From contig NZ_JAFLHG010000014.1 in assembly GCF_018717645.1 (NCBI RefSeq), positions 1 through 64,000 of the forward strand: a DNA stretch of 64,000 nt, read 5' to 3'. Origin of the DNA: Microbacterium flavum. GTDB taxonomy: Bacteria > Actinomycetota > Actinomycetes > Actinomycetales > Microbacteriaceae. This document shows positions 50,083 to 53,648 of the stretch, piece after piece. The notes under the pieces were generated by a model. It saw nothing but the letters and a program-made list of their open reading frames with translations, ran no database searches and had not been told where the DNA came from. Numbering within the stretch: position 1 is the first letter of the stretch; each line of letters starts with the position of its first letter. The translations under genes were made by a program, and so were the position numbers.

Positions 50083-50166
50083 CCCTCCATTGTGGCGCCC
50101 CTCCCTGTGCCCGGAGCGAGAGCGCTCACGTCCGGGCCGTCGACACCGTCCTCCCTTGCAGATCAC

Positions 50167-50182
50167 TCGAAGATATGTTCCA
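50167..50182. promoter_or_regulatory. LexA (SOS) box candidate before the radical SAM gene
   Basis: tcgaagatatgttcca matches the actinobacterial LexA box TCGAAC-N4-GTTCGA at 10 of 12 defined positions, one mismatch per half-site. It ends 8 bases before the ATG at 50191 and 85 bases from the start of the divergent carboxypeptidase gene. It overlaps TATGTT, a plausible -10 element, so a bound repressor would block transcription. Confidence 0.65.
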
Positions 50183-50190
50183 CTGAGCGT

Positions 50191-51246
50191 ATGCGGTGGC
50201 TCGGACAGACTCTCGAACACGAGGATGCCGCGACCCTGCCCGGAATGGAGCGCCTCGGTGGCCTCGTCCGCACCGTGACGACCCCCGAGTTCGCGGGAAT
50301 GACCTTCCACGAGGTGGCGGCCAAGTCCGCGCTCAACCACGTGCCCTCCGCCTCGGCGATGCCGTTCGACTGGACGGTGAACCCCTACCGCGGCTGCAGT
50401 CACGCCTGCTCGTACTGCTTCGCGCGCCAGACGCACACCTACCTCGACCTCGACGCCGGTCGAGACTTCGATGAGCAGATCGTCGTGAAGGTCAACGTCG
50501 CCGACGTCCTTCGCCGCGAGCTCGCGGCACCCGGCTGGCATCGAGAGCCCGTGGCGCTGGGCACCAATACCGATCCTTACCAGCGCGCCGAGGGACGCTA
50601 CCGATTGATGCCCGCGATCATCGACGCGCTCGCGTCGAGCGGCACCCCGTTCTCGGTGCTGACGAAGGGCACGCTGATCCGTCGCGACCTTCCCCTTCTC
50701 GCGGCGGCGAAGGAGACGGTGCCGGTCCATCTCGCGATGTCGATCGCGATGCCCGACGAGGAGATCCGCAGAACTCTGGAAGCCGGCGCTCCCACGTTCA
50801 CCGCGCGCCTGGAGACCGTCCGTGCCGCGCGGGAGGCGGGGTTCGCCGTCACGGTCTTCCTCATGCCGATCGTCCCGCACCTGACCGACTCGGTGGAGAT
50901 CCTCGACGATGCGCTCGCGCGGATCGCGGCAGCGGGTGCTACGCGGGTCGTCTACGGCGCGCTGCACCTGCGCCCCGGCGCTCGGGAATGGTTCTGGGAG
51001 TGGCTCGAGCGCGAGCATCCGGAGCTCGTACCGGCCTACCGCGGGCTGTACCCCGGCGTGTCCACGTACGCGCCCTCGGGCTACCGGAAGCTCCTGTCCG
51101 AGCGGGTGCGCCCGCTGCTGCGGAGGCACCGCCTCGCCGGCGGTGCGGAGGAGGAGGTGGAGGCGAAGCCGAAGGGCTCGGGTCGCCCCGGGCCGATCCG
51201 CTCCACCCGGCGCGGTGCAGCCGCCCCGGAGAACGCGCTCTTCTGA
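50191..51246 (+). CDS. Rv2578c-family radical SAM protein (spore-photoproduct-lyase-like)
   Basis: 351 residues. The [4Fe-4S]/SAM triad is Cys69, Cys73 and Cys76 in NPYRGCSHACSYCFAR, the pattern of the SplB-like group. A TIM-barrel core follows with LGTNTDPYQRAEG, and a polar C-terminal tail (about 320-351). The reaction is unknown; relatives repair DNA photoproducts or modify nucleic acids. The frame's Met at 50092 lies beyond the SOS-like box, so the start is 50191. An upstream LexA-like box supports a DNA-damage role. Confidence 0.9.
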   Translation: MRWLGQTLEHEDAATLPGMERLGGLVRTVTTPEFAGMTFHEVAAKSALNHVPSASAMPFDWTVNPYRGCSHACSYCFARQTHTYLDLDAGRDFDEQIVVKVNVADVLRRELAAPGWHREPVALGTNTDPYQRAEGRYRLMPAIIDALASSGTPFSVLTKGTLIRRDLPLLAAAKETVPVHLAMSIAMPDEEIRRTLEAGAPTFTARLETVRAAREAGFAVTVFLMPIVPHLTDSVEILDDALARIAAAGATRVVYGALHLRPGAREWFWEWLEREHPELVPAYRGLYPGVSTYAPSGYRKLLSERVRPLLRRHRLAGGAEEEVEAKPKGSGRPGPIRSTRRGAAAPENALF

Positions 51247-51326: not shown

Positions 51327-53612
51327 TCAGCGGTCGACGTCCGCGGACTGACGCCCGCTCGGTTCCTGAGCCCGTCGAAGAACCTCGAGGATGTCGTCGC
51401 CGGTGCGCGCGTCATCGAACGGCGCGTCGATCTCGGCGCGCTCGAGCATCTCCGTCATCTTGCGGCGACGCTGACGCGTGATCAGGGTCACCACGGTGCC
51501 GGTGCGACCCGCGCGACCGGTGCGACCCGATCGGTGCAGGTACGTCTTGTACTCGTCGGGCATGTCGGCCTGGATCACCAGGTCGATGTCGTCGACGTGG
51601 ATTCCACGCGCAGCGACGTCCGTCGCGACCAGCACGTTCACCCGGCCCGACGTCAGACGCTCGAGGTTGCGGGTGCGCTTGCCCTGGTTGAGGTCCCCGT
51701 GCAGCGCCACCGCGTTGATGCCGGCGTCGTCGAACTGCTCGGCGAGCATCTCGGCGTACGCCCGCGTGCGGGCGAAGACGAGGGTCTTGCCGGCGCGGTC
51801 GACGAGCGAGGTCAGGATCTCGGCCTTGTCGCGGTGGTCGATGACGAGGACGCGGTGGTCGATCGTTCCGGAGTCCTGGTCCTCACCGGCGACCTCGTAG
51901 ACGGCCGGCTCGACGAGGAACTCGTCGACGAGCGCGGCGACCTCGCGGTCCAGCGTCGCGGAGAACAGCAGCTTCTGCGCGCCGTCCTCGACGAGGCGGA
52001 GGATGCGCTGCATCGGCTCCAGGAAGCCGAGCTCGCTCATGTGGTCGGCCTCGTCGAGGACGACGATGCGGATCTCGGAGAGGTCGAGCTTGCCCTGGCT
52101 CTGGAGGTCCTCGATGCGCCCAGGGGTGCCGATGATGATGTCGACGCCCTTCTTGAGCGCGCCGACCTGGCGCGCCTGGGGCACACCGCCGTAGATCTGG
52201 GTCGTGAACAGGCCCACGCTGCGGGCGATCGGCTGAATGGTGCGATCGATCTGCAGCGCGAGCTCGCGCGTCGGCGCGAGGATCAGCGCCTTCGGGCTCC
52301 GTCCGAACTCGCGGCGCTTGCCCGCCTGGCTGCGCAGGATCGACTCGACCAGCGGCGCCCCGAAGGCGATCGTCTTGCCCGAGCCGGTGCGGCCGCGTGC
52401 GAGCACATCCTTGCCCTCGAGGATCGGGACGATCGTCGCAGCCTGGATCGGGAACGGGGACGCCGCGCCGAGGTCGGCTAGGACGCGAACGATGTTCTCG
52501 CCGAGCCCCAGGCTGCCGAAGGTCACGTCGGCGACCTCCTCAGCCTGGACGGCCTGCGCCTGCAGCTTCTCGTGCACGGTGTCGGCGTGCGCCTCGTAGG
52601 CCTTGCGCTTCGCGTCATCCTTGACATCGGCGTTCCAGTCGGAGCGGTTCCCGCCGGAGGATGCGCGGTCATCGCGACGCGGCCGGTCGTCACGGGCCGG
52701 GCGCGCGTCGCGACGCGGGCGGTCGTCGAACGAACGGGCCGGACGCTCATCGCGGGAAGGGCGCGTGTCGCGGCGAGCGCCGTCGTCGCGCCGGGGGCGG
52801 TCGTCGCGGGCCGGACGGTCGTCACGGGCCGGACGGTCGTCACGGGCCGGACGCGTGTCGCGACGCGGGCCGCCAGAACTCCACTGATTCGACCGGGAAT
52901 CCGACGAATCAGCCCGGTTCGGGCGATCCTGACCCCAGGAGGCGGAGCTTCGTCCACCCCTGTCGTCGCGGCGGGGCCGATCGTCGCGGAACGACGGGCG
53001 GGCATCGCCGAAGGTGCGACGATCGTCGCGCGGCTGACGCTCGCCGCGGGGGCGATCGTCGAAGGACCGGGAGGGACGGTCATCGCGACGCGGACGGTCA
53101 TCGTACGACCGCGCGGGACGGTCACCATACGAACGCGCGGGACGGTCATCGTACGAACGGGCGGGGCGGTCATCGCGACGCGGACGGTCATCGAACGACC
53201 GGGAGGGACGGTCATCGCGACGCGCGCGGTCATCGTACGACCGGGCGGGACGGTCATCGCGACGCGGGCGGTCATCGTACGACCGCGCCGGACGGTCATC
53301 GCGACGCGGACGGTCATCGTACGACCGGGCGGGACGGTCATCGCGACGCGGACGGTCGCCCTGCGCCTGCGTGCGGATGCCGCGGGCCTCATCGCGACCC
53401 GCGCGCTCCTGCGCGTTCCAGCGCTGCTTCTTCGCGGGAGCGTCGGCCGCCTCGGGGCGATAGCCGCGGTGGCCCGCGCTCTTGCTGCCGGGAGTGCCGG
53501 CGGATGACTGGCCGGGGCGGCGCTTGGCGTCCTGGTACGACGTCTTCTTCGCACCGTAGCGGGGTTCGAAGCTCTGCGCGCGGCCGCCGGCCGGCTTCTT
53601 GTTCTTGGGCAT
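51327..53612 (-). CDS. DEAD-box RNA helicase with long Arg/Asp-rich repeat domain
   Basis: 761 residues. Residues 1-85 are basic, and 86-316 form a low-complexity array of DDRPxRSYDDRPRR-type units. The helicase core runs from about 363 to 735: Q motif FPIQAAT, ARGRTGSGKT, PTRELALQ, TPGRI, DEAD, SATL and HRSGRTGRAG. It unwinds RNA duplexes in ribosome assembly or mRNA turnover and may phase-separate through the repeat domain, by analogy with RG-rich helicases (which carry it C-terminally). ATG at 53610-53612 preceded by aaagga; the Met at 53639 would place the ribosome site inside the gene. A long structured leader suggests post-transcriptional control. Confidence 0.93.
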   Translation of the reverse strand: MPKNKKPAGGRAQSFEPRYGAKKTSYQDAKRRPGQSSAGTPGSKSAGHRGYRPEAADAPAKKQRWNAQERAGRDEARGIRTQAQGDRPRRDDRPARSYDDRPRRDDRPARSYDDRPRRDDRPARSYDDRARRDDRPSRSFDDRPRRDDRPARSYDDRPARSYGDRPARSYDDRPRRDDRPSRSFDDRPRGERQPRDDRRTFGDARPSFRDDRPRRDDRGGRSSASWGQDRPNRADSSDSRSNQWSSGGPRRDTRPARDDRPARDDRPARDDRPRRDDGARRDTRPSRDERPARSFDDRPRRDARPARDDRPRRDDRASSGGNRSDWNADVKDDAKRKAYEAHADTVHEKLQAQAVQAEEVADVTFGSLGLGENIVRVLADLGAASPFPIQAATIVPILEGKDVLARGRTGSGKTIAFGAPLVESILRSQAGKRREFGRSPKALILAPTRELALQIDRTIQPIARSVGLFTTQIYGGVPQARQVGALKKGVDIIIGTPGRIEDLQSQGKLDLSEIRIVVLDEADHMSELGFLEPMQRILRLVEDGAQKLLFSATLDREVAALVDEFLVEPAVYEVAGEDQDSGTIDHRVLVIDHRDKAEILTSLVDRAGKTLVFARTRAYAEMLAEQFDDAGINAVALHGDLNQGKRTRNLERLTSGRVNVLVATDVAARGIHVDDIDLVIQADMPDEYKTYLHRSGRTGRAGRTGTVVTLITRQRRRKMTEMLERAEIDAPFDDARTGDDILEVLRRAQEPSGRQSADVDR
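52665..53357 (-). repeat. Intragenic imperfect repeat array coding the Arg/Asp-rich region
   Basis: Repeating units of about 21 and 42 bases built on ggtcatcgcgacgcg and ggtcatcgtacgaccg. Two blocks are visible: residues 86-190 (53043-53357) with about eight RSYDDRP/RRDDRPA units and residues 253-316 (52665-52856) with TRPARDD and DRPARDD units, separated by a non-repetitive stretch. All unit sizes keep frame. Such arrays are prone to copy-number change and assembly collapse. Confidence 0.85.
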
Positions 53613-53648
53613 GGGAAGTCCTTTTGGGTTGTCTCGCACGAGAACAGC

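Follow-up and report, generated by a model that had tools for sequence, protein, structure and literature searches.

The window analysed here, a stretch of 64,000 nucleotides from a contig of Microbacterium flavum, contains a gene for a radical SAM enzyme that is preceded, just before its start codon, by a sequence resembling a LexA (SOS) box. The locus raises the question of whether this gene belongs to the SOS regulon and, if so, on what a damage-induced radical enzyme of this kind would act. We consider it likely that the gene encodes a LexA-controlled DNA-lesion enzyme that is recruited by the sliding clamp. The features on which this reading is based are collected in Table 1.

Table 1. 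Features of the radical SAM locus (positions are those of the window)
Feature	Position	Strand	Remarks
-35-like element TTGCAG	50156..50161	+	TTG precedes the box by 11 or 12 nt in 138/140 genus promoters
Predicted LexA (SOS) box TCGAAGATATGTTCCA	50167..50182	+	24 nt before ATG; top window site under recA- and recA+lexA-trained matrices
-10-like hexamer TCCACT	50179..50184	+	Overlaps right half of box; predicted leaderless transcript
Rv2578c-family radical SAM gene	50191..51246	+	351 aa; ATG start; stop 51244-51246
[4Fe-4S] cluster motif C69-x3-C73-x2-C76 (CSHACSYC)	50395..50418	+	Three Cys invariant in 69/69 aligned sequences
Disordered C-terminal tail, residues 328-351	51172..51243	+	pLDDT <50; ends ENALF, degenerate motif of the clamp-binding type (xxxLF)

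The initial annotation had assigned the protein to the Rv2578c family, and this assignment is right. In an NCBIfam scan the protein scored 499.4 bits against NF038135, the model of this family, for which the curated cut-off is 430, with residues 1-315 aligned to profile positions 1-316. The Pfam Radical_SAM domain (PF04055) was found with 70.7 bits against a gathering score of 29.5. With the model of the sister family PA0069 (NF033668) the protein reached 213.8 bits, below the cut-off of 360, and the NCBIfam scan also gave a weak relation to mobile pair protein B. The window protein shares the cluster motif and the conserved start with the Rv2578c family, and nothing in it defines another family. 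Our alignment comprised 69 sequences, namely the window protein and 68 of the best 80 loci among 587 actinobacterial similarity matches; 12 loci were omitted, three of them for misplaced starts. The N-terminal start-Arg-Trp is invariant throughout this alignment, which supports the ATG at 50191 as the start. The gene was found in 144 of the 149 genomes of the window's genus, with 140 over the family cut-off.

A box on the forward strand with one mismatch per half-site relative to TCGAAC-N4-GTTCGA had already been proposed at this position, and the evidence for it is stronger than was claimed. With two mismatches allowed, the bare consensus matches 445 forward sites in the genome (3.26 Mb), versus 95 for the reversed control pattern, and a plain search of the genome with it was dropped as too unspecific; lineage-specific matrices were therefore used. 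A matrix made from 29 recA boxes, all from other genomes of the genus, placed the box first in the window with 21.9 bits (next site 15.6), and its symmetrised version gave 22.6 (next 14.7). One site equal to or better than the window box was present in a simulated genome. With a combined matrix that also included 29 lexA boxes from other genomes of the genus, the window box scored 23.55 and the next site 14.0, the lexA and recA boxes of the same genome scored 23.5 and 17.4, and the simulated genome had no site equal to the window box. The recA-only matrix is the cleaner test, since a pattern had been used to select the lexA boxes.

All 29 recA loci listed for the genus have an upstream box with 0-2 mismatches, located 225-233 nt before the match in 28 of them and 260 nt before it in one. 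Position 6 is relaxed in these boxes, where all four bases occur, and the recA box of the window's own genome, TCGTATTTTTGTTCGA, has two mismatches like the window box, so that the latter appears to be ordinary in strength for its genome. The presumed lexA box of the genus reads CCGAANNTANCTTCGA and lies some 210-260 nt upstream of the model match. With a conserved promoter box that scores like the recA and lexA boxes of its lineage, the window gene is a predicted member of the LexA regulon.

A survey of orthologues, which had been suggested as a check on the box, bears it out. In all of the best 80 loci among the 587 matches, a box with at most three mismatches occurs at -23 to -26, with no mismatch in 27, one in 31, two in 12, and three in 10. 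Among 1558 control windows further upstream, with four positions each, none had two or fewer mismatches and four had three. Within the genus we compared 142 promoters, those of the genomes whose gene start was available, and a matrix score of at least 5 at -23 to -25 was obtained in 138 of them, versus 15 of 2556 control triplets. Measured by the canonical consensus, the boxes of the genus are degenerate (0-2 mismatches in 58, three in 61, 4-5 in 21, and 8-9 in two), and the affinity of LexA for them may therefore be moderate. The conservation of the box within the lineage strongly supports LexA control of this gene.

The initial annotation also had the box overlapping a -10-like TATGTT. This hexamer is present at 50174-50179 but is probably misplaced as a -10 element, as it starts 12 nt after TTGCAG, and A occurs as its second base in only 47 of the 140 aligned genus promoters. 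In these promoters TTG is found 11 nt before the box in 127 and 12 nt before it in 11, and a hexamer TCNNNT, which corresponds to box positions 13-18, follows the TTG element at a spacing of 17 nt in 124 of these 138 by our count. Position 6 of the hexamer is T in 137 of the 140, the distance from hexamer to ATG is 6 nt in 120, and a Shine-Dalgarno-like sequence is present in only seven. TTGCAG and TCCACT, separated by 17 nt, probably make a better promoter than one containing TATGTT. The transcript would then be leaderless, and LexA on its box would cover the -10 region just upstream of the transcript start and block transcription. Upon DNA damage, RecA would trigger the self-cleavage of LexA and the enzyme would be made.

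A relaxed genus pattern, TCGNNNNTNTGTTC, has 29 sites in the M. flavum genome, compared with one for the control, and these include recA and the window gene. We examined five further sites of the 29, picked by eye. Three adjoin SOS-type genes, these being ruvA, an SSB paralogue (about 200 nt downstream), and a DUF222/HNH gene, and two are found by unrelated genes, one in a creatininase region and the other among ABC-permease- and kinase-like frames. In Mycobacterium tuberculosis, 13E12-family HNH genes and Ruv genes have been discussed as being under LexA (PMC4181829). For dnaE2, which was left out of matrix training, no consistent canonical box was found up to 1500 nt upstream of the match in 11 genus loci (30 were fetched), and this counts against a simple regulon picture.

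The claim of "SplB-like chemistry" made for this protein holds for its predicted fold and less so for its active site. In structural comparisons, Foldseek included, of the AlphaFold model of the window protein (pLDDT 83.9, pTM 0.82), spore photoproduct lyase (SPL) is the best fold match, with the Geobacillus structure 4fhc aligning over 268 residues (Z 19.8, rmsd 3.4 Å); the best other fold family, pyruvate formate-lyase activase, gave a Z of 15.8. A sequence-profile search of the PDB returned nine matches, the top five of which were SPL chains (E 0.006-0.018), and a PDB search with the single window protein returned nothing meaningful. In the profile alignment the SPL cluster loop GCMGHCHYCYLQTT is aligned with GCSHACSYCFARQT of the window protein, both having the form CX3CX2C, and SPL Tyr98 therefore corresponds to Phe77. 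This column contains Phe in 65 of the 69 family members and Tyr in four, so that the Tyr of the SPL hydrogen relay is not a general feature of the family. Outside the cluster, no column of the 69 members has Cys above 64%, and the best such column is Val220 in the window protein. A distance of 34 residues separates SPL Cys140 from Lys174 and likewise the invariant Thr125 from Lys159 of the window protein, and by this equal spacing Cys140 probably corresponds to Thr125; when the family profile was compared with the SPL fragment by hhalign, the alignment covered just residues 191-230 and did not reach the Cys140 region. The window protein thus shares the predicted fold and the cluster loop of SPL, but it is without an equivalent of Tyr98 and probably (by spacing) of Cys140, and it has a clamp-type tail motif. 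SPL is under sporulation control, and the window gene has a LexA box instead. We conclude that the protein has an SPL-like predicted fold but probably not SPL catalysis.

The consensus for binding to the sliding clamp is QL[S/D]LF or QxxLF, sometimes only xxxLF (PMC12309361). A C-terminal motif of this type occurs in 78 of the 80 orthologues (best 80 of 587), 45 of which have QxxL followed by a hydrophobic residue within the last 12 residues and 33 more of which end in xxxL[FLIM]. The last two residues are LF in 74 and L[FLI] in 77 of these 80. As background we took 1022 further open frames from these loci, each 200 aa or longer, which are stop-to-stop frames and not all genes; one of them has a QxxL-type motif and none ends in LF. 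The motif is more degenerate in the window's genus, where 30 of 30 tails end in LF and eight keep the Gln. The window tail, ENALF, also has no first-position Gln, and affinity for the clamp could therefore be weak or lost in the window protein. The clamp-type motif was not mentioned in the initial annotation, and our literature search, made in the main texts of openly accessible papers, found no report of a clamp motif in the Rv2578c family. According to our proposal, the enzyme would consist of an SPL-type barrel and a flexible tail, the last residues of which would dock on the sliding clamp (DnaN). Docking would allow the 5'-deoxyadenosyl-radical chemistry to act on lesions at replication forks or behind them, and the DNA lesion that serves as substrate would not necessarily be the spore photoproduct.

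Of 119 genomes drawn from the phylum, 57 match the family model at E 0.001, 10 of them over the cut-off. The sample gave 29 new loci, and most of their proteins score slightly below the family cut-off. A box with at most two mismatches lies no more than 150 nt before the assigned start in 26 of the 29; 25 is the safer count, as the site at L342 reads as coding. L324 and L325 have a box with three mismatches and L340 has none. The protein ends in a Q-x-x-L/I type motif in 28 of the 29 (counted by eye), mostly after a variable tail. Fifteen further matches from the phylum were fetched, two of them (L356 and L363) without upstream sequence. The near-family loci L353, L354 and L355 have boxes with one, zero and two mismatches, respectively, that of L355 being 295 nt away. 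Seven loci of the PA0069 type from one actinobacterial family (L357-L362 and L364) carry a QxxL-type tail; no TCGAAC-type box was found within 300 nt of them (best 4-5 mismatches), nor was a shared spaced tetramer pair. The distant loci L365-L367 have no box better than four mismatches. Eleven of these 15 loci have the strict tail pattern, L353 and L356 have variants of it, and L365 and L366 have none. The notion that box and tail always occur together was ruled out by the seven PA0069-type loci and by L367, which have a QxxL end and no box. Judging from these sequences, LexA control in the TCGAAC form does not demonstrably cover every branch.

We also searched a plasmid collection, in which 69 records contain a homologue, and examined 18 that were chosen for variety among 40 listed. 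Twelve of the 18 are close relatives, eight being from Alphaproteobacteria, three from Actinomycetota and one from Gemmatimonadota. Ten of these have the strict tail pattern; the Azospirillum protein ends in QLTMF and the Gemmatirosa protein in QLSLGI. The clamp-type tail is present in all eight alphaproteobacterial proteins, and in seven of the eight loci GTTC-N7-GTTC, which is the LexA pattern of the Alphaproteobacteria, occurs within 500 nt upstream of the match; the reversed pattern did not occur there, and the rest of these loci (11,936 nt) was free of the box. In Paracoccus ferrooxidans this box starts 27 nt before the annotated start. Two of the alphaproteobacterial relatives are annotated as PA0069 family members, and the relatives have a QLSLL/QLSLF-type end and a GTTC-N7-GTTC box unlike that of the window. 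The presence of a box of another type upstream of these relatives argues that the regulation, and not merely the DNA, has been kept. The three Actinomycetota relatives have a TCGAAC-type box with 1-2 mismatches, and no box was found upstream of the Gemmatirosa relative. In the six distant homologues (from Haladaptatus, Runella, Priestia, Nostoc, Monoglobus and Selenomonas) the tail is absent, and neither GTTC-N7-GTTC nor CGAAC-N4-GTTCG was found, although these patterns may not be the LexA motifs of their phyla; the Selenomonas homologue has a TCGAAC-type match with two mismatches 271 nt away. On the Runella plasmid pRUNSL02, the distant radical SAM homologue, which has no clamp motif, is located directly before a gene with a UvrD-helicase domain and overlaps it by a few bases. 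The Haladaptatus (archaeal) plasmid has two radical SAM genes in tandem.

Other explanations of the locus have to be weighed against a LexA-controlled, clamp-recruited enzyme. The conserved 16-mer could be mainly a promoter element of the -10 region, with LexA control having been lost in the genus. Its right half, TGTTC, which overlaps the predicted -10, is identical in all 140 aligned promoters, but this sameness is partly a matter of construction, the offset of each genus box having been selected from ten positions as the best. In the left half the genus is relaxed at positions 4-6, a point in favour of such an element, whereas the outer left half is conserved (at positions 1-3, T in 135, C in 124 and G in 140 of 142). 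In addition, recA in this genus has the same kind of box and the recA-trained matrices put the window box first, and 56 of the 142 genus genomes have a second LexA-like box 33-35 nt upstream of the first, compared with 2 of 1136 control position triplets (this second box was not found in the window's genome). We regard the promoter-element explanation as very unlikely.

The nature of the reaction allows for two further alternatives. The enzyme would be a true lyase of the spore photoproduct type if it reversed thymine-derived UV photoproducts by the Cys/Tyr hydrogen relay of SPL, and the position of SPL as clearly the best structural match and at the head of the PDB sequence-profile matches could be understood in this way. 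The residues of the relay speak against it, however, given Phe77 in place of Tyr98, the lack of a well conserved Cys column outside the cluster (with Val in the window protein at the best one), and the invariant Thr125 that by spacing takes the place of Cys140. In the NCBIfam scan of the window protein, moreover, no SPL model came up with an E of 0.001 or lower, and we think an SPL-type reaction unlikely. Improbable, too, is an SOS-induced radical SAM enzyme that acts on a target other than DNA, such as the nucleotide pool, RNA or protein, with the LF motif being a coincidence or serving some other contact. Radical SAM enzymes are chemically diverse and the motif is degenerate in the genus, both of which would suit such a target, but Q-x-x-L/I ends in 28 of 29 phylum loci and in 12 of 12 close plasmid relatives, set against the background of one in 1022, speak against coincidence.

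The regulation itself is not new, since LexA control of SplB-like genes is already in print. In the available portions of the respective papers, splB/COG1533 is described as being under LexA in alpha- and beta-Proteobacteria (PMC3323433), as is a SplB-like/COG1533 gene in Bacteroidetes (PMC8565304), and the SplB-like radical SAM gene vnz_31145 of Streptomyces venezuelae is bound by LexA in ChIP and induced 20-fold by mitomycin (PMC9380542). These systems have LexA control of a SplB-like radical SAM gene, as is predicted for the window gene, which would add a member to them. The published box of vnz_31145, TCGACCGTTCGCTC at -61 (PMC9380542), is not of the GCGAACATGTGTTCTA type that we saw before the Streptomyces homologue L320. 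The same portions of the three papers describe neither a clamp motif nor missing SPL residues. A connection of SplB-like genes with ImuB-C domains has been made elsewhere (PMC3765255).

The initial annotation suggested that the mycobacterial homologue is damage-inducible. In M. tuberculosis, mitomycin C induces a "DNA repair photolyase" in a manner that depends on RecA (PMC8151990), and this is probably the mycobacterial homologue of the window gene; the suggestion was not confirmed by locus name, none being given in the available text. Our literature search found no paper naming Rv2578c together with LexA. In Streptomyces ambofaciens ATCC 23877 a prophage interrupts a gene of the Rv2578c family with no obvious fitness cost, and the authors call a DNA-repair role speculative and warn that the SplB label is unproven (PMC12924846).

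In the cited papers, as far as they were available, SplB-like genes under LexA have so far been regarded as coding for repair enzymes that resemble UV photolyases. The question changes with the absence of the SPL residues and the conservation of the clamp-type tail, which together appear to set this protein apart as new: a broadly conserved radical enzyme induced by damage may reach replication forks, and the tail could place the family in replication-coupled repair. More tentatively, and with about an even chance of being right at best, we suggest that the Rv2578c- and PA0069-type proteins form a class of their own among DNA-lesion enzymes, that is, clamp-riding radical SAM proteins, mostly LexA-controlled and without the SPL Cys/Tyr relay, that would occur in the Actinomycetota and Alphaproteobacteria, with the clamp motif also present in one member from the Gemmatimonadota.

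Several other features of the gene and its surroundings were observed. In 41 of the 144 genus genomes with an orthologue (counted from the listing), the match extends over 1.4-2.0 kb instead of about 0.95 kb. The sole long-match orthologue examined, L082, has an intein within the cluster motif, immediately ahead of the third Cys, and its enzyme should therefore be inactive until spliced. In Demequina litorisediminis (L037) the similarity of the orthologue ends at residue 284 and the C-terminus is unlike that of the family, perhaps as a result of an assembly frameshift. Homologues are present in 9 of 50,697 phage records, all at less than 60% identity. The convergent neighbour of the window gene (51327-53639, reverse strand) resembles, by eye, a DEAD-box RNA helicase with a long, repetitive N-terminal region rich in Arg and Asp.
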